Source of the DNA: a virus
Virus record (IMG/VR): IMGVR_UViG_3300042449_000346
Coordinates: 1-35,063 of that record
Strand: one strand, 5' to 3'
DNA length: 35,063 nt
Made by a program: the position numbers and the translations under genes. Under the pieces are notes generated by a model. It had not been told where the DNA came from and did not search any database. It saw nothing but the letters and a program-made list of their open reading frames with translations. Below are positions 3,420-33,814 of this stretch, piece after piece (position 1 is the first letter of the stretch; every line of letters starts with the position of its first letter).

Positions 3420-5252
3420 TTAGTATGTAGTCGAACCGAGAGTTTGAACCCTTATTTTAATATCTTTATTAGGGAACCTAATTTGGAATATCTGATTGTT
3501 CTTCATAAACACTACACTATTAGTTTGACGTATCTCTTTTGTTGCGGTGTCTTCATATGATTGTGATACTTGTGCTGACGAATATTCATTACCGATTTTG
3601 TTGAATACCCTAATTTTTACTACGTTCTCAACACCCGGTACATTACCAATAGAATTAGATAATTGTCCTACCATTAATGGATCTCCCATTTTTCTCTTTT
3701 CAATTCTAAAGAATTCAATAATTGATTCAATAGCGGACTTAATAATGTCACTTTGACTTTCGTTTTTATCAACAACCAAATCCACTTCTAAAGCTAAATC
3801 GATAACTTCACCACTCACAATATCCAAATAGTCGTTAATCATTCTATATTCAGAAAGATAAGATAAGATATTGTTTTTTAATGTGTTAGATACGGTATCA
3901 GTTAAATTACCTTTCTCGTCGTATGATAATAATTTAATTCTGATTTTATTATTTTCTTCCATCACGTTAACCTTCGCTGGTGCTCCGTATATTGATGGCA
4001 TTGTTTCGATTAATGATTTATAGTCATTTAAGGTAACTGCTCTATTTTGAGCCGCGAAATTATAAGAAATCATGTTTCTTATTTCTTCAATTGTCGGTTG
4101 GTCTGCACCACCTACAGCTGGAGTTACGTTGGTTACTCTTAAAGATTGTTCTACCTGTGTATTAGTTCCTGATATTGGACCGTTTATGTTAAATTCAACA
4201 GTATCTATTGACGTGATTACGTTAACCCCTAAATTGGAATCTTTACCTCCACCAATTCGATATTTCACAAATAGTGTTGAGTTATTCTTAGGTATTGCTC
4301 CTAATGAAAGGTTGTTAAGATATGTTGCTAAATTTACTTTTAATTGACCTGTAATGTAGTTGTCAAGGTTATCCATTGGATTAACTGAACCCGACCCAAA
4401 AATCATTGAGAAGTATCCTTCTGGTGTGTATTCAGTTGTAAATTTATTATTTACATCAATATACGTTCCAGCCTTGAAATTGTTCTTATCTGATGAACTT
4501 GTAGGGTTGGGTACAAATACTTTATCCTGCATTAATGATTTAACCTCATACCATTTATTTGCAATTTCAGAAAATTCCGAGTTTGTTGGATTACCAGCAA
4601 ACGTTGTACCATCTTTATGGATTACGGAAACTACTCCCAAAACATTTTGTTCAGGTAAGAATATTTTTAAAAACGGTTTTTGGTCGAACTCAGTAATAAC
4701 CTTTCTGAAAATTCTTGTTACCCCATTTACAACCGCCTCTCTTTTAGTAATAGTATATGATATTAATTTATTATTTCCGTCAAAATTTGGAATCTTTAAT
4801 CTATTTGGTTCACCTTTACTATTAAATGGATTTGAAAAATCGATGTCCTCTAATGTTTCAAATACTTGTCCTCCACCTGATACTTGTGCACCACTTTTTA
4901 TTATACCCAAGTATCTTTCATCTTCCTTATCACCTCTAACGGGTACATTTATTGAAAAGTCACATAACGCAACCGAAGGTCTATTACCCGGTAATCTTAA
5001 ACCATATGTTTTTGCAATATGAAATAATGATTGTCTTTGTTGTGCAAAGTCCAACATTGTTTCTTGCCAAACTCTATCTATATGAAAGTGTAAGTTATCC
5101 GCAACGGCAGCATTTAAATCTAATAATACTGAAAAGATAGATGCGTCATTAGTATTTTTTACTAAATCAGGATAATAATCATTAGTCAGGTTTACAAGTT
5201 CTTCCCTTAAACCCGCAAAATCTCTCGTTGCGTATGTTATTTTTTTTGCCAT
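3420..5252 (-). CDS. 6: Baseplate wedge protein, gp6-like
   Basis: This 610-residue protein resembles the T4 gp6 / phage J-family baseplate wedge subunit that joins the wedges into the ring around the hub and dilates on contraction (T4 gp6 is 660 aa). The N-terminus (ATRDFAGLREELVNLTNDYY, then DASIFSVLLDLNAAVADNLH and FHIDR) is the conserved gp6/J start. The C-terminal half (about residues 400-600) has the typical LNDYKSLIETMPSIYG and late VNVMEENN-type arm region. The ATG at 5252 follows the gp25 stop at 5254 with one base between, so the two are translationally coupled. That gp25-gp6 pairing is also seen in T4-like phages and strengthens the call. No truncation or frameshift is visible. Confidence 0.88.
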   Translation of the reverse strand: MAKKITYATRDFAGLREELVNLTNDYYPDLVKNTNDASIFSVLLDLNAAVADNLHFHIDRVWQETMLDFAQQRQSLFHIAKTYGLRLPGNRPSVALCDFSINVPVRGDKEDERYLGIIKSGAQVSGGGQVFETLEDIDFSNPFNSKGEPNRLKIPNFDGNNKLISYTITKREAVVNGVTRIFRKVITEFDQKPFLKIFLPEQNVLGVVSVIHKDGTTFAGNPTNSEFSEIANKWYEVKSLMQDKVFVPNPTSSSDKNNFKAGTYIDVNNKFTTEYTPEGYFSMIFGSGSVNPMDNLDNYITGQLKVNLATYLNNLSLGAIPKNNSTLFVKYRIGGGKDSNLGVNVITSIDTVEFNINGPISGTNTQVEQSLRVTNVTPAVGGADQPTIEEIRNMISYNFAAQNRAVTLNDYKSLIETMPSIYGAPAKVNVMEENNKIRIKLLSYDEKGNLTDTVSNTLKNNILSYLSEYRMINDYLDIVSGEVIDLALEVDLVVDKNESQSDIIKSAIESIIEFFRIEKRKMGDPLMVGQLSNSIGNVPGVENVVKIRVFNKIGNEYSSAQVSQSYEDTATKEIRQTNSVVFMKNNQIFQIRFPNKDIKIRVQTLGSTTY

Positions 5253-14871: not shown

Positions 14872-15237
14872 TTATTCTAAAGTTAATAAGTAACTTAATT
14901 TATTTAATTCACCTAACATTTCATCACGTATATTTAATAAATCGGTATCAGAAGAGTCCAATTCCATTTGAACAAAGGCACTTCTTACTGTGGTTATTAA
15001 TCCTTTCATATCAATATCGGAAAGATTATTTAATTGAATATTTTTAGTTTCTTCGTCTAAAACGAATCTACCGTATTTTCCCATTGCTGCTTCTACAAAC
15101 ATATCGATTAAACCACCTAATACATCGTAAAATCCACCAAACGCATTATGTCTAGCATAACCTTTAGTTTGCCAATGGTTGATTTTCATTTGTAATTGTA
15201 AACCTAATAAGAAGTTTACATTAGTAGCTATATTCAT
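14872..15237 (-). CDS. Small helical Dps/ferritin-like protein (DUF5856-like)
   Basis: This 121-residue, all-helical protein starts MNIATNVNFLLGLQLQMKIN. It carries HWQTKGYARHNAFGGFYDVLGGLID, with His21, His30, Asp38, Asp45 and Glu49. The pattern LxxLxxQLxxHWxTK...H...Y/D resembles the first helices of Dps/ferritin-type proteins, and it is the kind of short protein I know from T4-like phages as DUF5856. The spacing could place metal ligands as in Dps, but only half of a four-helix bundle's usual length (about 160 aa) is present. Its start overlaps the preceding gene by 17 bases, so the two are coupled. Its role in a late tail operon is unknown: metal or DNA binding, or a virion part. The family assignment is from memory of the motif. 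Confidence 0.7.
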   Translation of the reverse strand: MNIATNVNFLLGLQLQMKINHWQTKGYARHNAFGGFYDVLGGLIDMFVEAAMGKYGRFVLDEETKNIQLNNLSDIDMKGLITTVRSAFVQMELDSSDTDLLNIRDEMLGELNKLSYLLTLE

Positions 15238-27141: not shown

Positions 27142-29052
27142 TTAAAGTGTCGTATAATCCTTTTCCGTTCTTGAGAATACATCCGACCATACATCTTGAT
27201 TTCTAACAATTTCCCTACTTATTGCATCCCCAATGTTTGGAACCGTAACATTTAAGTTAACATTTTTTGTGGTAGGTAATGACGTATTTGGTGCTGAACT
27301 GTTAGTTCCAGTATTACTTGCACCTGTAACTTCATTTAGTTTCGCCTGTAAACTATTTATTTGAGAAGTAATAACTGAACCTGCACCTGTTGATTTAAGT
27401 TCATCAATTGTGGATTGAATGTTGGCTTTTAAATCTTCAATAATTGTTCCCGATTCACCCTTTTGTACTTTATTTGTATATTCAGTTAATTGGTTTTGTA
27501 ATCCTTTTGTGATATTATCTAAATTTAAACCTCCTTCACCTCTAATTCCACTTGTCAATCTCATTCTAGCTAATGTTACTATTGAGTTCACATCTCTCTG
27601 AATGTTTATGATTGACTCAAATTGGTCTCTAGCAACTTCTTCGGAAGTCATGTTTCCTAATTCTTGTTGATACTCTTTTAATCGTTTTGCTTGATTTTCT
27701 GATAAATCAGTTAACGCTACTTGAGTATCTTTTATACCTAAACTATCTTGTAAACTTTTTGGAACATCAATTACCATTCTACCACCATCCATTCTTGACA
27801 TGTTAATAAGAAATTCTTTATCCTTCTCATCCATGTTAAAACCTCGAGCCATCAAATCACTACTAGCCGCTAATCTTTCTTGTGAAGCAATTGCACTTCT
27901 TGTAAGTTCTTTGTAGTCGACACCTAACTGAGCAGCCATTTCTTTTGCTCTTCTTAAATTGACTCCCGTGATTTCAAATCTTCCTTGTTCACTGTTATAA
28001 TCCGCCAAACTTCCCGCAGCCTCAATTAACGCATCTTGTAAACCTTCAACATTGTTGGTGGCCATGTACATTAATTTTAATGGATCATTAAAATCACCAA
28101 TAGCACCACCCAATACTTGCAAATTTGCTGATAATTCAATTGCTTTGTCAGGGTCCATTACACTTTCTGCTACTTTAAAAGCTTCACCCATATTCATTCT
28201 GAATTCTGCCGCCTTTCTTGACATTTGAGCTAACCCATCAATACCCTTTTGAAAGCCATATTGATTTAATTTATCAATGTTTTCTCTTATATCTTTAACA
28301 GTAGTTTTTCCTCTTAAACCTAAACCCTGAGATTCTCTACCGGCTTTATCTATTGCTTGTATTGCACTTCTTGCCCCAAAACCAACCTTTTCAAACTCAT
28401 TGAATATTTTTCCAATTTCTTTATAATCACCTATAAATGCTCTTGATACTCCTAAAGCACCTTCTAATGTTTGTTGGTTAACTATGTTAAATCTACCACT
28501 TTCCTCAATTAAATTCTCAAACGCACCTGTAATATCTTCGATACCATATCCGAATCTAACTGCTTGACTTGTGGATTCGGTAATTTCAGTTCTAACATCT
28601 TTTGATAATTTTCCAGCTAATCCTGTACTTTCATTAATGTCCGTTCTTAGTTGAGCCTCAATTGCTAATTGATTAGTTATTTGTTGAATAACGTCCTTAC
28701 CCTGACCTAATATAGCGTTGGCTGATAAACCGTTTTTTTGTATGTTTTCTAAAACACTAGATATATTGTATTCTTCTTTATCCGTTATGCGTCCATAATC
28801 CGAATTAGTTTCAAATGTGTCTAATAATCCTTTTATACCACCCGCAATATTTCCTGTGAAATTTGTATTTCCGTTTGAATTATTATTTGAGGTGTTATTC
28901 GATGTAGGAGGACTCATTCTCATTTTTCGATCATAAAAAGTTCTCGCTGAAGATTTTGTACCCAATCCGGCAGCCTCAACTTTAGTTGCAAAGTCTTCTC
29001 TACTTGTTGAGTTTCTTAAAATATCATCTAATTGATCTATAGGATTCGCCAT
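27142..29052 (-). CDS. Tail tape-measure-like protein
   Basis: This 636-residue protein is mostly alpha-helical (about residues 75-520), with an N-terminal helical segment and an Asn/Ser/Thr-rich linker (NNTSNNNSNGNTN, about 52-66). SANLQVLGGAIGDFNDPLKL, then MYMATNNVEGLQDALIEAAG, is the kind of repeated helical core seen in phage tape measures. T4 gp29, the tape measure, is 590 aa, so the size fits a T4-length tail. The C-terminus is a short Pro/Thr-rich tail plus SREIVRNQDVW. It follows tube, gp26-like and a short +1-frame ORF, exactly where the tape measure gene sits after the tail assembly chaperone in other long-tailed phages. No membrane segment is apparent. Confidence 0.78.
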   Translation of the reverse strand: MANPIDQLDDILRNSTSREDFATKVEAAGLGTKSSARTFYDRKMRMSPPTSNNTSNNNSNGNTNFTGNIAGGIKGLLDTFETNSDYGRITDKEEYNISSVLENIQKNGLSANAILGQGKDVIQQITNQLAIEAQLRTDINESTGLAGKLSKDVRTEITESTSQAVRFGYGIEDITGAFENLIEESGRFNIVNQQTLEGALGVSRAFIGDYKEIGKIFNEFEKVGFGARSAIQAIDKAGRESQGLGLRGKTTVKDIRENIDKLNQYGFQKGIDGLAQMSRKAAEFRMNMGEAFKVAESVMDPDKAIELSANLQVLGGAIGDFNDPLKLMYMATNNVEGLQDALIEAAGSLADYNSEQGRFEITGVNLRRAKEMAAQLGVDYKELTRSAIASQERLAASSDLMARGFNMDEKDKEFLINMSRMDGGRMVIDVPKSLQDSLGIKDTQVALTDLSENQAKRLKEYQQELGNMTSEEVARDQFESIINIQRDVNSIVTLARMRLTSGIRGEGGLNLDNITKGLQNQLTEYTNKVQKGESGTIIEDLKANIQSTIDELKSTGAGSVITSQINSLQAKLNEVTGASNTGTNSSAPNTSLPTTKNVNLNVTVPNIGDAISREIVRNQDVWSDVFSRTEKDYTTL

Positions 29053-29065: not shown

Positions 29066-29197
29066 TTATTTTTTGTTTTCTAATTCTACCAAATAGTTGA
29101 CATAATAACGTCTTTCCCATACCGGCATGGTGAGAATGTCACCATATGTGAAACCTCTTTTAATTAAGAATAAAAATTCGTCTAATTGTCCTTTTTT
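29066..29197 (-). CDS. Short +1-frame ORF, probable frameshift extension of the gp26-like gene (tail assembly chaperone-like)
   Basis: After the gp26-like stop (29196-29198) a frame at +1 encodes 43 residues: KKGQLDEFLFLIKRGFTYGD, ILTMPVWERRYYVNYLVELE, NKK, then a stop at 29066. It has no ATG except an internal one in TMPVWERR, and the +1 frame is open back into the gp26-like 3' end. The pattern of a helix, MPVWERR and a charged helix recalls short phage tail-assembly proteins. In most long-tailed phages the gene before the tape measure makes two products by programmed frameshift (gpG/gpGT). A slip of -2 on the T-run at 29217-29222, or +1 at the stop codon, would give a protein of about 292 aa. 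Expression by frameshift is inference. Confidence 0.6.
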   Translation of the reverse strand, partial: KKGQLDEFLFLIKRGFTYGDILTMPVWERRYYVNYLVELENKK

Positions 29198-29945
29198 ATA
29201 ATCCGTAGAAAGGACGAAAAAACTCAACCCCGAATCCAATTTCAACTTGGATTGTGTCTCCTGACGGGGTGGTTACTGTTTGGGTCAAATCAAGACCGGG
29301 TTTATTTTCTCTTACGAATTTCTTGAAGTCTTGAGAATCTTTAATAGGTAAATTTTCAACAAAATCCCTTATTGACATGTTATCTCTAACACCTCCTACA
29401 GATTGAATCATCATCTCAAGTTGTTTTGTTACAATGGGTGCAATACCAAGTCCACTCCAACTTTTCTCAATGTCCTTAATTTCGTTTTCTTGTTTTTGGG
29501 TAAGGAATTTAAAAGTTACTTCTTTTTTAGACCTTTCCATAAAGTAGGTATATTCACCATTTGAATCTTCTTTTAAATTGAAATCTTTAACTTTAAGTAA
29601 AGAAAGGTCAATTTCAAACGTAAATTGTTCATTTGTTTTAGGGTCAACTGTATTAATTGTATATTCAGAACCAAACGCAGTATTTCTTAAGAATATTAAG
29701 ATTGCTTGTTTATCTTCTTCAACAATTTCATCAATAGAAATATCTCTATCAAGAATCTTTCTTTTTAATAATTCAGTAACAACACTGTTTGTTGAAACTA
29801 AACTTGGTGCCGCTAAGATGTTTTCGTCAGATGCTGTAAGATACGCAACTCGTAGTGATTTCTTTTTATTTGCGTAGTGAATACCTTTACTTGGTAATTC
29901 AACAACGTCGTATGCGATTGAGGGGTCTATTCGTAATTGTTCCAT
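29196..29945 (-). CDS. 26: gp26-like baseplate/tail assembly protein
   Basis: This 249-residue protein resembles the T4 gp26 baseplate hub family. It has VVELPSKGIHYANKKKSLRV, the conserved TASDENILAAPSLVSTNSVV, then ELLKRKILD, which is the sort of region gp26 proteins share. The rest is a mixed alpha/beta domain (residues 100-150) and helices, ending FGVEFFRPFYGL. T4 gp26 is 208 aa. It lies between tube and tape-measure-like genes, where non-T4 phages encode tail assembly chaperones, and the short +1-frame ORF after it fits that reading. The start at 29945 lacks a TATTTATA octamer, so transcription may come through the tube terminator or from an unseen promoter. Confidence 0.68.
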   Translation of the reverse strand: MEQLRIDPSIAYDVVELPSKGIHYANKKKSLRVAYLTASDENILAAPSLVSTNSVVTELLKRKILDRDISIDEIVEEDKQAILIFLRNTAFGSEYTINTVDPKTNEQFTFEIDLSLLKVKDFNLKEDSNGEYTYFMERSKKEVTFKFLTQKQENEIKDIEKSWSGLGIAPIVTKQLEMMIQSVGGVRDNMSIRDFVENLPIKDSQDFKKFVRENKPGLDLTQTVTTPSGDTIQVEIGFGVEFFRPFYGL

Positions 29946-30044: not shown

Positions 30045-30533
30045 TTAGTAAATTTGGATACATCTATCCATTCTTAAAGAACACGTGATTGAAGCTAAGT
30101 CATCTCTTGAGTAATCAAGTTCGTTAAAGTTTAAATCAGTGATGAAACAACCCTCTAATTTCCATTTTTCAACCACAACACCTGTTGGGTCTAACATTTC
30201 TAAATCTACGTTTTTCTTATATCCTGCAGCATATCCCATTCTACCTGTTACAGACTCCGCATGTAAACGGAACCATTCCATCAAAGCTTGAGACGCAGAA
30301 GGTCCAATTGGGTCTTTAAATGTTACACGAATCTCATTCCACTCAAATCTACCAGCAACATAAGTTGAGGTATTCAAGAAAGGAATTGCAACTGAGTTAA
30401 TTTTTGCACTAGGTCTAGCTGCAGAGGTTACGAACCATTCGTTGATACCCAAAGATGAGTCGAATCTAACGATAAATCGGTTTACTCTTTTCGGCTCATA
30501 TGGAGCCGGCATTTTCATTAATAAATCTGCCAT
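30045..30533 (-). CDS. 19: Tail tube protein, gp19-like
   Basis: This 162-residue protein matches T4 gp19 (163 aa), the subunit of the inner tube through which DNA passes. It has NRFIVRFDSSLGINEWFVTS, RFEWNEIRVTFKDPIGPSAS, then QALMEWF, and the conserved GYKKNVDLEMLDPTGVVVEK, WKLEGCFITDLNFNELDYSR segment of the gp19 fold. The gene is a monocistronic-looking unit with a terminator at 29993-30021 and a TATTTATA octamer 39 bases upstream of its ATG. This allows the very high dosage of tube protein that a tail needs. Confidence 0.94.
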   Translation of the reverse strand: MADLLMKMPAPYEPKRVNRFIVRFDSSLGINEWFVTSAARPSAKINSVAIPFLNTSTYVAGRFEWNEIRVTFKDPIGPSASQALMEWFRLHAESVTGRMGYAAGYKKNVDLEMLDPTGVVVEKWKLEGCFITDLNFNELDYSRDDLASITCSLRMDRCIQIY

Positions 30534-30892: not shown

Positions 30893-33814
30893 TTAAACGT
30901 TATCGAATGATGCTCCTGTTGGTGTAATAATGAACTCAACATCAATAAATTCAAGAGAACGAGTAGGTTTGATATAAATCTTACCTCTTAACGTGTTAGC
31001 ATCAATATCTTCTGGATCATTTGATACGGTTACACGGAACTCATATAAACCTCTTTCTTTCTTAATTGATTCAAGAATTGGATTAACCAATCTCAAGAAT
31101 TCATTTCTTACTTGTTCGTCGTTTTGTTCAAATAACAATCTAACCGCAACTGCTGAAATCAATTTTCTTGCTCTTAATAACAATCTTCTTACGTTGATTC
31201 TATCAAGTGCAGATTCTCTAACTTGAAGAGTTTTGTTACCCCAAATAATAGTACCTGTATCAGAGAATGTTGCAATTGGGTTAATTCTAGCTTTATAAAG
31301 TTCATCTCTTTCGTCTAAAGTTAATTTTTTAGACGCTTTGATAGCGTTTACTAAACCTCTTGAATAACCAGCGACTGCGAACCAAGGATATGATACGTTA
31401 TCGGTTAATGCGATATTCTTCAATACTTCACCTGTTGGTGGGATGTAAAGTTGAGTTGCGTTATCTACGTCTCTTACTTGAATCCAAGGCCAATATGTTG
31501 CTGAATAGTTAGAGTCGATAGCGGCATCATCTAAGAAACCTACCACATCTTCTGCTGCAGTTGTTCCTGTAACGTTAGGTGAGTTCATAATATACAATGA
31601 ATCCGCTCTATCGTTTTCAACCATGTCAATTGCTTGATTGACTAATGAACTTTGGTCGTAGAAGTTAATACCTGGAGTAGCAAATACGTTGATGTCTACC
31701 GCTTCAGGGTTAGCAAAGGTGTTGATACCTGCTAAGTATGAATAGTAATCTGAGTTTCCGTTATACTCATCAAAAACACCACTGTTTCTAGTGTTACCAC
31801 TTACATAAGTTGTTTTTCCAAATATAAAACCATCACCAAAAGTTCTAACACCTCTGTAAATGTCCCATCCGTCAAAACCACCACAAACCGCCATCGTGAA
31901 TTTACGATTTGCTACCGTTAATAATTTATTAGTAATACCATTTGTTGCGTCTGCTTGACCTTCCAAGTCGTATGGTGTTGTTTTAAACATATATCCACTT
32001 GGTGTTGCACCTGTGATAGTTGCAGCATTTTTTGATAAGTGGAAACCATATGTGTACTCTTCAGCACCAGTTCCTTTGAATTTCAATAAATCTCTATCAT
32101 AACCTACTTGAGATGACATACCTAAAGTTACCTTTCTAATCTTGTCACCCGCTTCAATTATTGAAGAACCATCTGAATTGTATCTTACAACATCTCCGGC
32201 GTCTTGATATTGTGTTTTGTAAACAATACCTCCTTGTGTTTTACCTGAGAAGTTTGTTTCAGTTGTAAAACCTTTGAAACCAGCAGGAATTGCGTCTACA
32301 GGATGATTATCCGCTAAAACTAATGTTACAATTTTAGAACGTAATTCGTATTCACCATCAGAAGTACCAACTTTTCTACCAATATATCCTGGTAAATCAG
32401 GGTTCATTGAACATCTTGAAAATTTCTCTAATACAACAATGTTTTCATCGGTATCGTTGAAATCACGGATTAACACATCAAAGTCACCCGTTTCAAGGTT
32501 AATGTTTTGAATTGTAATCTTAATTTCAAAATTTGCAGCGTCACCGTCAGAAATAGTTTGGAATTGGAATAAATCCGAAACTTTACCACCTCTTACTTCT
32601 GAAACCACCATTGGTGACAATGTAGTATCCCACTCTCTTAAGAAATTATCTCCTTCTAGATTGTATACTTCGTCTAAACTTAAACCTCTAATTTGACCTC
32701 TTTCGAAAGCCGATTTTAATAAGTTAGGATAAACTTCATGTACATAAAGAGGAAATTCTCTATATGATTTTTCAAAAACACCAATACCTAAAACTTTACT
32801 AATGTATTTTGTTGATGTTGTGTCTAATGAACAAGTAAAACTTTTAGCACCGTCGGTATCACCTGTTACGTTAATAACAAATTCTGATAATGGATTACTT
32901 GTTATGTCAAAATTAGAACTTAATGATAAAGCGAAGTCACTATTGTTAGTTACTTCTAATAACAATTCTTGAGTAGCGTTATAACGACCTCTTGATCTTA
33001 AAACTGCCACAACCGTATCTGCGAAGTCAGTATTTAATGATGCTGGATATGTAAATCTCTTTACATCAAATCCTCCGTTTATGTTGTTATAAACAAAAAG
33101 ATAAGAATATACTGAAACAATTGTTGAATCTGTACTTCCGGTTTTATGGAAACATGTGTTATACCACTCTTTTCCGTTACTGTTACCATCAGTTTTATTA
33201 CCTGTAAGAGGAGAGTCAATTTCTTTTGAACTAGTTAATGAAGACAATTCATCAGAAGGAACTAAACCTATTGTAAACCAATAACCATTATTACCACTTG
33301 TTGGAGTGTAACCACTAAGTTGTGATTGAACATACTCCGCAATTGTGTTCCCTGACCACGAATTTACACCATCTAAATGTGTGTAGAATGAACTGTTAGT
33401 CATTCCCGTTAATGTTCTCGGGTCCATGATTGATGTATCTTCCGTTGGTGTTGCGCCGGTGTTTACAACTACTCCACCTAAGGATTTAATACCGAATGAT
33501 TTATATGGTTTGTATCCAGTCAATCCTAAGATTCTGGTTACAAATAATTGGTTTGATTCTTGTAAATAAGATTTTGCCACATAAGGTAATTCATATTTTA
33601 GGTTTCCTCCCTCGTCTTTTGCAGGAGATGTACCGCCAAAATATGTTCTAAATTCGTCGAAATTTGTTATCAACAATGGTTCAAATGCTGGACCTTTTAA
33701 AGTCTCACCCACTAAACCCAAAGTTGTAACCCCGACGCTCTGTGCCACGAATGTTAAATCTTTCTCTGATGTGTAGACACCTGGAGAAACGAATACTCTG
33801 TTTGAATTTGCCAT
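30893..33814 (-). CDS. 18: Tail sheath protein, gp18-like
   Basis: This 973-residue protein matches contractile tail sheath proteins. The N-terminus (VFVSPGVYTSEKDLTFVAQS) inserts into the neighbouring subunit, and VGETLKGPAFEPLLITNFDE, FRTYFGG follows. The conserved C-terminal half has PWFAVAGYSRGLV (about 806-820) and WGNKTLQVRESALDRINVRR, then LLLRARKLI. It ends with EFRVTVSNDPEDIDANTLRG, then KIYIKPTRSLEFIDVEFII. T4 gp18 is 659 aa, so about 300 extra residues are inserted in the middle, between about residues 120 and 620, and probably form outward-facing domains. It is a single-gene unit with its own terminator and a late-motif octamer 37 bases upstream. Sheath would be one of the most abundant virion proteins. 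Confidence 0.95.
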   Translation of the reverse strand: MANSNRVFVSPGVYTSEKDLTFVAQSVGVTTLGLVGETLKGPAFEPLLITNFDEFRTYFGGTSPAKDEGGNLKYELPYVAKSYLQESNQLFVTRILGLTGYKPYKSFGIKSLGGVVVNTGATPTEDTSIMDPRTLTGMTNSSFYTHLDGVNSWSGNTIAEYVQSQLSGYTPTSGNNGYWFTIGLVPSDELSSLTSSKEIDSPLTGNKTDGNSNGKEWYNTCFHKTGSTDSTIVSVYSYLFVYNNINGGFDVKRFTYPASLNTDFADTVVAVLRSRGRYNATQELLLEVTNNSDFALSLSSNFDITSNPLSEFVINVTGDTDGAKSFTCSLDTTSTKYISKVLGIGVFEKSYREFPLYVHEVYPNLLKSAFERGQIRGLSLDEVYNLEGDNFLREWDTTLSPMVVSEVRGGKVSDLFQFQTISDGDAANFEIKITIQNINLETGDFDVLIRDFNDTDENIVVLEKFSRCSMNPDLPGYIGRKVGTSDGEYELRSKIVTLVLADNHPVDAIPAGFKGFTTETNFSGKTQGGIVYKTQYQDAGDVVRYNSDGSSIIEAGDKIRKVTLGMSSQVGYDRDLLKFKGTGAEEYTYGFHLSKNAATITGATPSGYMFKTTPYDLEGQADATNGITNKLLTVANRKFTMAVCGGFDGWDIYRGVRTFGDGFIFGKTTYVSGNTRNSGVFDEYNGNSDYYSYLAGINTFANPEAVDINVFATPGINFYDQSSLVNQAIDMVENDRADSLYIMNSPNVTGTTAAEDVVGFLDDAAIDSNYSATYWPWIQVRDVDNATQLYIPPTGEVLKNIALTDNVSYPWFAVAGYSRGLVNAIKASKKLTLDERDELYKARINPIATFSDTGTIIWGNKTLQVRESALDRINVRRLLLRARKLISAVAVRLLFEQNDEQVRNEFLRLVNPILESIKKERGLYEFRVTVSNDPEDIDANTLRGKIYIKPTRSLEFIDVEFIITPTGASFDNV

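Follow-up and report, generated by a model that had tools for sequence, protein, structure and literature searches.

Gene Layout at the gp26-like Locus

The stretch of DNA analysed here, referred to below as the window, comprises positions 1–35,063 of the IMG/VR record IMGVR_UViG_3300042449_000346 (35,063 nt) and belongs to a T4-type phage. The tail sheath, the tail tube, a gp26-like gene, a short open reading frame (ORF), and a large gene are all encoded on its minus strand (Table 1). The gp26-like protein scores above the curated cut-off of PF12322, the T4_baseplate or gp26 family (30.4 vs. 24.5 bits, E = 4e-7), and matches phrog_150 (E = 3.3e-11). Its gene terminates with a stop codon at 29198–29196 and lies between the confirmed tube gene (PF06841) and the large gene, which is assigned as a tape measure by position and by the annotation of relatives only. 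The short ORF, referred to below as the extension, occupies the +1 frame relative to the gp26-like gene, is open back across the gp26 stop codon, and continues for 43 codons beyond it. An AF2 model of the unshifted gp26-like protein, which does not cover the fusion, has a pLDDT of 88.9 and a disordered tail after the putative slip site.

Table 1. Coordinates of the gp26-like gene, its predicted recoding elements, and neighbouring tail genes in the window.
Feature	Position	Strand	Basis
Tail sheath (gp18-like), upstream neighbour	30893..33814	(-)	PF04984, phrog_23
Tail tube (gp19-like), upstream neighbour	30045..30533	(-)	PF06841, phrog_4542
gp26-like gene, unshifted product of 249 aa (G-like form)	29196..29945	(-)	ORF; PF12322; phrog_150
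Predicted 292-aa fusion (GT-like form)	29066..29945	(-)	Translation with TTTC read as F
GGGG 5′ of the slip, possible Shine-Dalgarno-like stimulator within the gene	29228..29231	(-)	GGG codon conservation
Putative slip site TTT TTT C, TTT to TTC re-pairing (+1) on the second codon	29216..29222	(-)	Codon conservation
A-site codon CGT (Arg, rarely used)	29214..29216	(-)	CGN bias
Extension, +1 frame, 49 post-slip codons and a stop (29066–29068)	29066..29215	(-)	Purifying selection, profile comparisons
Large gene, 636 aa, tape-measure position	27142..29052	(-)	Position only

The sheath protein of the window is 973 aa long, with recognised sheath domains confined to its C-terminal third. Elsewhere, positions 14872–15237 encode a small protein that matches phrog_858 (E = 4e-15; starvation-inducible transcriptional regulator) and sits among replication genes, namely those for gp32-like, RecA/UvsX-like, 5′-3′ exonuclease, and DnaB-like helicase proteins.

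Relatives were gathered through gp26 only and never through the extension, and comprised six isolates together with IMG/VR contigs. A search of plasmids for gp26 returned no match, and a genome scan using the SP-15-type gp26 as a query found no relatives.

Conservation and Coding Capacity of the Extension

Across 188 distinct loci, the +1 frame remained open for at least 30 codons beyond the gp26 stop in 184, compared with 21 for the other frame. Three of the four exceptions reach the contig end, and the fourth, L215, carries the extension in the −1 frame. The extension of the +1 group showed a dN/dS of 0.156 with no stops in 90 loci, whereas the other two frames over the same region gave dN/dS values of about 1.0–1.3 and about 250 stops each. 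The same +1 extension was also present behind the gp26-like genes of immuto, Mel-JY01, GXN1, LIS04, SP-15, and LR756508. By comparison, the extension is protein-coding, evolves under purifying selection, and is far from a chance ORF.

These results bear on an earlier sequence-only reading of the window, which had described a short ORF in the +1 frame, open back into the 3′ end of the gp26-like gene, and a 43-residue extension yielding a fusion of about 292 aa. Both claims held: ORF analysis and the proposed alignment of homologues confirmed the frame relation at 184/188 loci, and a +1 slip at TTTTTTC gives a product of exactly 292 aa. A lack of amino-acid conservation in the peptide, named there as grounds for refutation, was not observed, as the dN/dS value indicates.

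L215 is the sole locus with TTC TTC TGG at the slip position, and its extension lies in the −1 and not the +1 frame. A switch of direction or an assembly error could account for this.

Putative Slip Site and Inferred Direction of the Shift

Codons were tabulated at the C-terminal Phe-Phe (FF) pair, without requiring the heptamer in the −1 group, which kept the slip table unbiased. In window-type loci the second slip codon was invariably TTT (105/105), while the rest of gp26 contained 938 TTT and 273 TTC codons (p about 1e-11). Marine relatives had 78 TTT, 5 CTT, 1 CTA, and 1 TTC at this codon, usually followed by TGG. The Fisher p-values reported here and below disregard kinship among the sequences, and it is the effect sizes that carry the weight.

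The extension frame was retained in three types of natural variants: TTC TTT CG (L024, L029, L076, L139), TTC TTT TGG (L153, L194), and TTT CTT TGG (immuto, L207). All of them allow +1 re-pairing of the P-site tRNA (TTT to TTC or TTT; CTT to TTT) but not −2 re-pairing, and in all of them the T-run is interrupted. Re-pairing from CTT to TTT is the event known from prfB. Because the variants permit the +1 but not the −2 movement and break the T-run, +1 ribosomal slippage is favoured over both −2 and transcriptional slippage.

A −2 ribosomal shift on the six-T run, as reported for Mu, had been offered in the sequence-only reading. It would yield the same frame, and TTTTTT permits re-pairing of TTT with TTT two bases back in most loci; the product would carry one Phe more than the +1 product. 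However, −2 re-pairing is impossible in the three variant types, which nonetheless keep the frame, and this alternative is virtually ruled out. Transcriptional slippage at the T-run, which would generate mixed mRNAs for the two products, draws support from runs of 6–7 Ts at the slip site and from a 9-T run in myxobacterial loci. Against it, six Ts are short for polymerase slippage, the frame is still kept where the run is interrupted (TTCTTT, TTTCTTT), and the upstream GGG/GGAGG conservation described below suits ribosomal stimulators rather than a polymerase event. We regard this alternative, too, as practically excluded, although it remains conceivable at the myxobacterial T9 site.

A programmed frameshift remains the preferred reading, and it very probably fuses the gp26-like protein to the extension; the evidence is comparative only, and both the actual slippage and its efficiency are inferred. 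The predicted junction peptide of the +1 fusion in the window is GVEFFVLSTDYK. The earlier proposal of a programmed shift, either +1 or −2, is thus supported by comparison and narrowed to +1 at TTT-C within the six-T run, with the −2 option disfavoured by the natural variants. Conservation of the T-run, suggested there as a check, was examined and gave the invariant second TTT codon in window-type loci and interrupted runs elsewhere.

A +1 slip at the stop codon itself (TTA TAA AAA) had also been suggested. This candidate failed and was rejected, as it showed no conservation across relatives.

Codon Bias and a Candidate Stimulator

The codon bias around the slip extends to both of its sides. 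Arg codons at the A-site position were CGN in 102/102 cases, compared with ~5.5% of the Arg codons elsewhere in the gene; dual coding may possibly account for part of this bias. At codon −3, three before the slip, Gly was encoded by GGG in 100/104 window-type loci, as opposed to 69/841 (8%) elsewhere (p = 5e-83), and Glu directly before the slip was enriched for GAG in these loci (p = 4e-22). In many relatives the shifted frame contains stops at the GGG position, and in 17 window-type loci a shifted-frame stop lies at most two codons before the slip. Dual coding does not explain the fixation of GGG, because the shifted frame there often has stops. The simplest reading, inferred but in our view probable, is that GGG/GGGG acts at the RNA level as a Shine-Dalgarno-like stimulator. 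Analysis of downstream RNA structure in the window revealed no stable stimulator (z = −0.87, not significant).

Relatives with the Extension in the −1 Frame

The same extension was found in the −1 frame at 88 of 89 loci of a second group, which consists of cyanophages together with Atu_ph07, PA5oct, RAS14, and PC-Liy1. The slip site of this group reads T TTT TTC/T, with the cyano-type T TTT TTC present in 84/87. The extension of the cyanophage −1 group had a dN/dS of 0.066 and no stops, and a GAG codon, used in 72/80 cases vs. a 28% background (p = 4e-29), creates the motif GGAGG, placed 9 nt 5′ of T TTT TTC. Such a combination of GGAGG and T TTT TTC is a dnaX-like arrangement. Although the evidence is comparative only, cyanophages and jumbo phages very likely arrive at this fusion through a −1 slip.

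The cyanophage gp51 was described in 2010 as resembling the C-terminus of T4 gp51, with ~200 residues missing (PMC3037559); frameshifting is not mentioned in the text of that paper. For some phages at least, the start annotated for cyanophage “gp51” is probably an artefact. Annotated stand-alone cyanophage “gp51” genes at 3693–3884 of L219 and 3732–3869 of L226 resemble the −1 half of gp26.

Relationship to T4 gp26 and gp51

Profile comparison shows that T4-type gp26 and gp51 are paralogues. The Straboviridae gp26 and gp51 profiles matched at 99.7% (E = 1e-25), with gp26 residues 1–207 aligned to gp51 residues 3–206, and PF12322 covers the whole of T4 gp26 and residues 1–201 of gp51. T4 gp26 ends in ...KEFFELL. 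The cyanophage fusion aligned with T4-type gp51 over its full length (99.3%, E = 9e-21) and was colinear with it across the junction (DFFRLS vs. DVFKLL); the +1 fusions also matched the gp51 profile (93.5%, E = 2e-7). The extension alone mapped to gp51 residues 201–259 (E = 8.5e-11), a score reached by none of 100 column shuffles. The hhalign E-values derive from single comparisons and are rough, with the shuffles serving as a control. On fusion, the phrog_150 match of the window protein grew from positions 15–233 (44.1 bits) to 15–281 (51.0 bits), reaching the end of the profile; the same match improved by 4–8 bits in L118, L142, and L198, with no gain in SP-15.

The gene order 51-26-25 occurs in RB43 and PF-CE2, which is the order that a tandem duplication would be expected to leave. 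Given the gp26/gp51 paralogy, the colinearity of the fusion with gp51, the phrog_150 gain, and this gene order, T4 therefore seems to encode the two products separately, with 26 corresponding to the unshifted form and 51 being a paralogue with the extension in frame. This assignment is inferred, and we consider it likely. In the Pseudotevenviruses contigs L224 (4001–5294) and L318 (1501–2794), genes 51 and 26 adjoin in tandem, an arrangement that fits duplication.

Possible Independent Translation of the Extension

Alternatively, the short ORF could be a gene of its own, translated into a separate small protein from an internal TTG of gp26 (at 29245 or 3′ of it) or through re-initiation downstream of the gp26 stop. 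The +1 frame of the window does hold upstream TTG codons (ORF from 29245) that would permit such a start, an ATG lies 5 nt beyond the gp26 stop in many cyanophages, and cyanophage databases carry the extension as a separate gp51. A TAATG/TGATG start could also make the extension separately in PC-Liy1, SD25, K362, Y68, XG4, and S-CRM01. However, no ATG, GTG, or TTG lies between the upstream stop and the slip in 24/104 window-type and 31/82 marine-type loci, and 7/85 cyano-type loci have no start codon until 24 nt past the slip. These counts come from a table in which some loci were scored at an incorrect FF pair and members of the −1 group were required to carry the heptamer. The 17 window-type loci with a shifted-frame stop immediately upstream of the slip also speak against an internal start. 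Moreover, an independent gene would leave unexplained the conserved residues right after the slip, the fixed slip codons, and the upstream GGG/GAG, and the profiles are colinear with an in-frame gp51 across the junction. As a general explanation, an independent gene is thus very unlikely, while independent translation in some phages, beside or instead of the frameshift, remains possible.

The sequence-only claim that the short ORF has no usable start codon held in part: its wording was slightly too strong for the window, because TTG codons are present, but these are not conserved among relatives. An independent start codon in homologues, which that reading would have taken as refutation, is possible in several (TAATG/TGATG), whereas many others lack any start before the slip. 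For the preferred frameshift reading, the frame relation, the coding status, the conservation of the slip site and stimulator, and the colinearity with gp51 are shown by comparison.

K362 (L230) and SD25 (L228) have lost the FF slip pair and possess only a TAATG-started extension ORF, which represents a natural uncoupling.

Contractile Injection Systems and DUF6760

In Myxococcota, the gp26-like genes have T TTT TTT TTG or T TTT TTA/G at their ends, and the extension follows in −1. The operon of L426 runs in the order sheath, tube, gp26-like, extension, Pvc16_N, AAA ATPase, CIS_tube, hub, and spike, and encodes an extracellular contractile injection system. In L426 (8619–19171), a gp26-like gene with a 9-T slip site lies inside a GC-rich myxobacterial genome.

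The Pfam family DUF6760 (PF20546) mapped to the extension in G118, and in 20/20 myxobacterial loci (L428–L448) the DUF6760 peptide was in the −1 frame relative to the upstream ORF. The slip sequence preceding it was mostly the near-invariant GGGGGAATCGTAAGCTACCC, and otherwise G GGC CCT TGA or T TTT TTA/G. The window extension alone scored below the DUF6760 cut-off (13.5 vs. 27 bits, E = 0.075). Profile comparisons matched the window-type extension to DUF6760 members (95.1%, E = 3e-8) and the DUF6760-type to the phage extensions (97.1%, E = 6e-11), with 0/40 shuffles in either case. DUF6760 and the phage extensions are homologous at the profile level.

Tail Assembly Chaperone or Hub Component

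An ORF of at least 300 codons lies directly downstream in 174/186 loci of the +1 group and 73/84 loci of the −1 group, and this gene is annotated as a tape measure in immuto and LIS04. The tape-measure candidate of the window had no sequence match to T4 gp29, and candidates were also unmatched across lineages; the earlier claim of a location just before a tape-measure-like gene is upheld as to position, without a gp29 match. One criterion for a G/GT pair, an overlapping ORF joined by a conserved programmed frameshift, is met on comparative evidence only. A second, the gpG fold, is not met: the gp26 model had no PDB fold match at E ≤ 0.001 among solved structures, comparison of the gp26-like protein with PDB sequences gave no meaningful match, and the suggested comparison with gpG found neither a fold nor a sequence match.

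It could be argued that the frameshift is real but that both products are structural parts of the hub or baseplate. gp26 is annotated as “baseplate hub”, genetic work cited in PMC3004832 puts it in the hub, and no binding data are available here. However, the same source gives gp26 and gp51 as hub assembly chaperones, with gp51 required for T4 assembly yet absent from the particle. The location of the gene ahead of the tape measure and its G/GT-like architecture also argue against a purely structural role, and the injection-system operon shares the order sheath-tube-gp26-extension. We find the structural alternative unlikely. The preferred reading is that gp26 and its fusion are probably the T4-type counterparts of the lambda tape-measure chaperones gpG and gpGT; this rests on analogy, and binding to the tape measure and tube is inferred. 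The earlier suggestion that gp26-like proteins act as the chaperone is accordingly supported by architecture, gp51 paralogy, and injection-system operons, but not by tape-measure binding or a gpG fold match.

Proposed Mechanism and Implications

Under this model, most ribosomes would terminate at 29196 and produce the 249-aa protein. In a fraction of them, the Phe tRNA would occupy the second TTT as P-site codon while the rare CGT waits in the A site; aided by the upstream GGGG, it would move +1 from TTT to TTC, giving the 292-aa fusion. If lambda gpG/gpGT is taken as a model, the short form may coat the tape-measure protein encoded immediately downstream, and the less abundant long form may start tail-tube assembly by recruiting the tube through its C-terminal extension, both forms leaving the finished tail. 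Relatives would obtain the same two products by −1 slippage, and T4 from genes 26 (short) and 51 (the paralogue with the extension in frame). Frameshifting at a useful frequency, its efficiency, and the roles in tape-measure and tube binding are inferred; with no junction peptide, reporter, or ribosome profile, we consider this two-product explanation of the gp26-like gene likely.

According to PMC5009743, the G-T frameshift is conserved widely but not in T4, which makes T4 the standard exception to the G-T rule of long-tailed phages. On the present reading this exception dissolves: most of the sampled gp26 relatives, which number in the hundreds, look frameshifted, and T4 carries the products as two genes. 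What would be new is a G-T tail-chaperone frameshift, in a +1 form, within just those phages that are named as lacking it (PMC5009743), which the comparative evidence, the only kind at hand, makes probable. No prior report of a gp26 frameshift was found in the open-access literature searched; subscription papers and preprints were outside its scope. The relatives also form a natural series in which the direction of the slip varies and the product is conserved.

A bolder reading, which we hold to be somewhat more likely than not, is that a single ancient frameshift-encoded chaperone pair (gp26 and gp26-extension) is common to T4-type and jumbo phages and to the contractile injection systems of bacteria. 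Over time, its slip would have switched repeatedly between +1 and −1 and among T-run, G-run, and GGGCCC while the fused protein stayed unchanged, and T4 would have duplicated the gene into 26 and 51. If true, this would assign a function to T4 gp51 and DUF6760.

Comparison with Known Systems

Like the lambda gpG/gpGT pair, made by a −1 frameshift, and those of other G-T phages, the gp26-like gene lies directly upstream of the gene in the tape-measure position. It also shares with gpG/gpGT a putative slip near the 3′ end, a small C-terminal extension from an overlapping ORF, and two predicted products from one gene, but belongs to the gp26 family (PF12322), gave no fold or sequence match to gpG, and would shift +1 in the window lineage. 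The putative slip site resembles the +1 site of prfB (RF2) in the CTT T of immuto and L207, and both prfB and dnaX sites in the Shine-Dalgarno-like element upstream, with dnaX-like spacing in cyanophages; unlike prfB, the window group uses TTT C followed by a rare CGN codon and no stop codon. The cyanophage and vibriophage “gp51” (phrog_634) is the same extension as in the window, but lies in −1 behind T TTT TTC. DUF6760 likewise matches the extension behind a gp26-like gene and differs in its slip sites (G GGG GA, G GGC CCT, or T TTT TTA/G); Pfam assigns it no function. Finally, T4 gp26 corresponds to the unshifted form and ends at the same FF, and T4 gp51 resembles the fusion end to end, but in T4, 26 and 51 are separate genes and no frameshift is involved.
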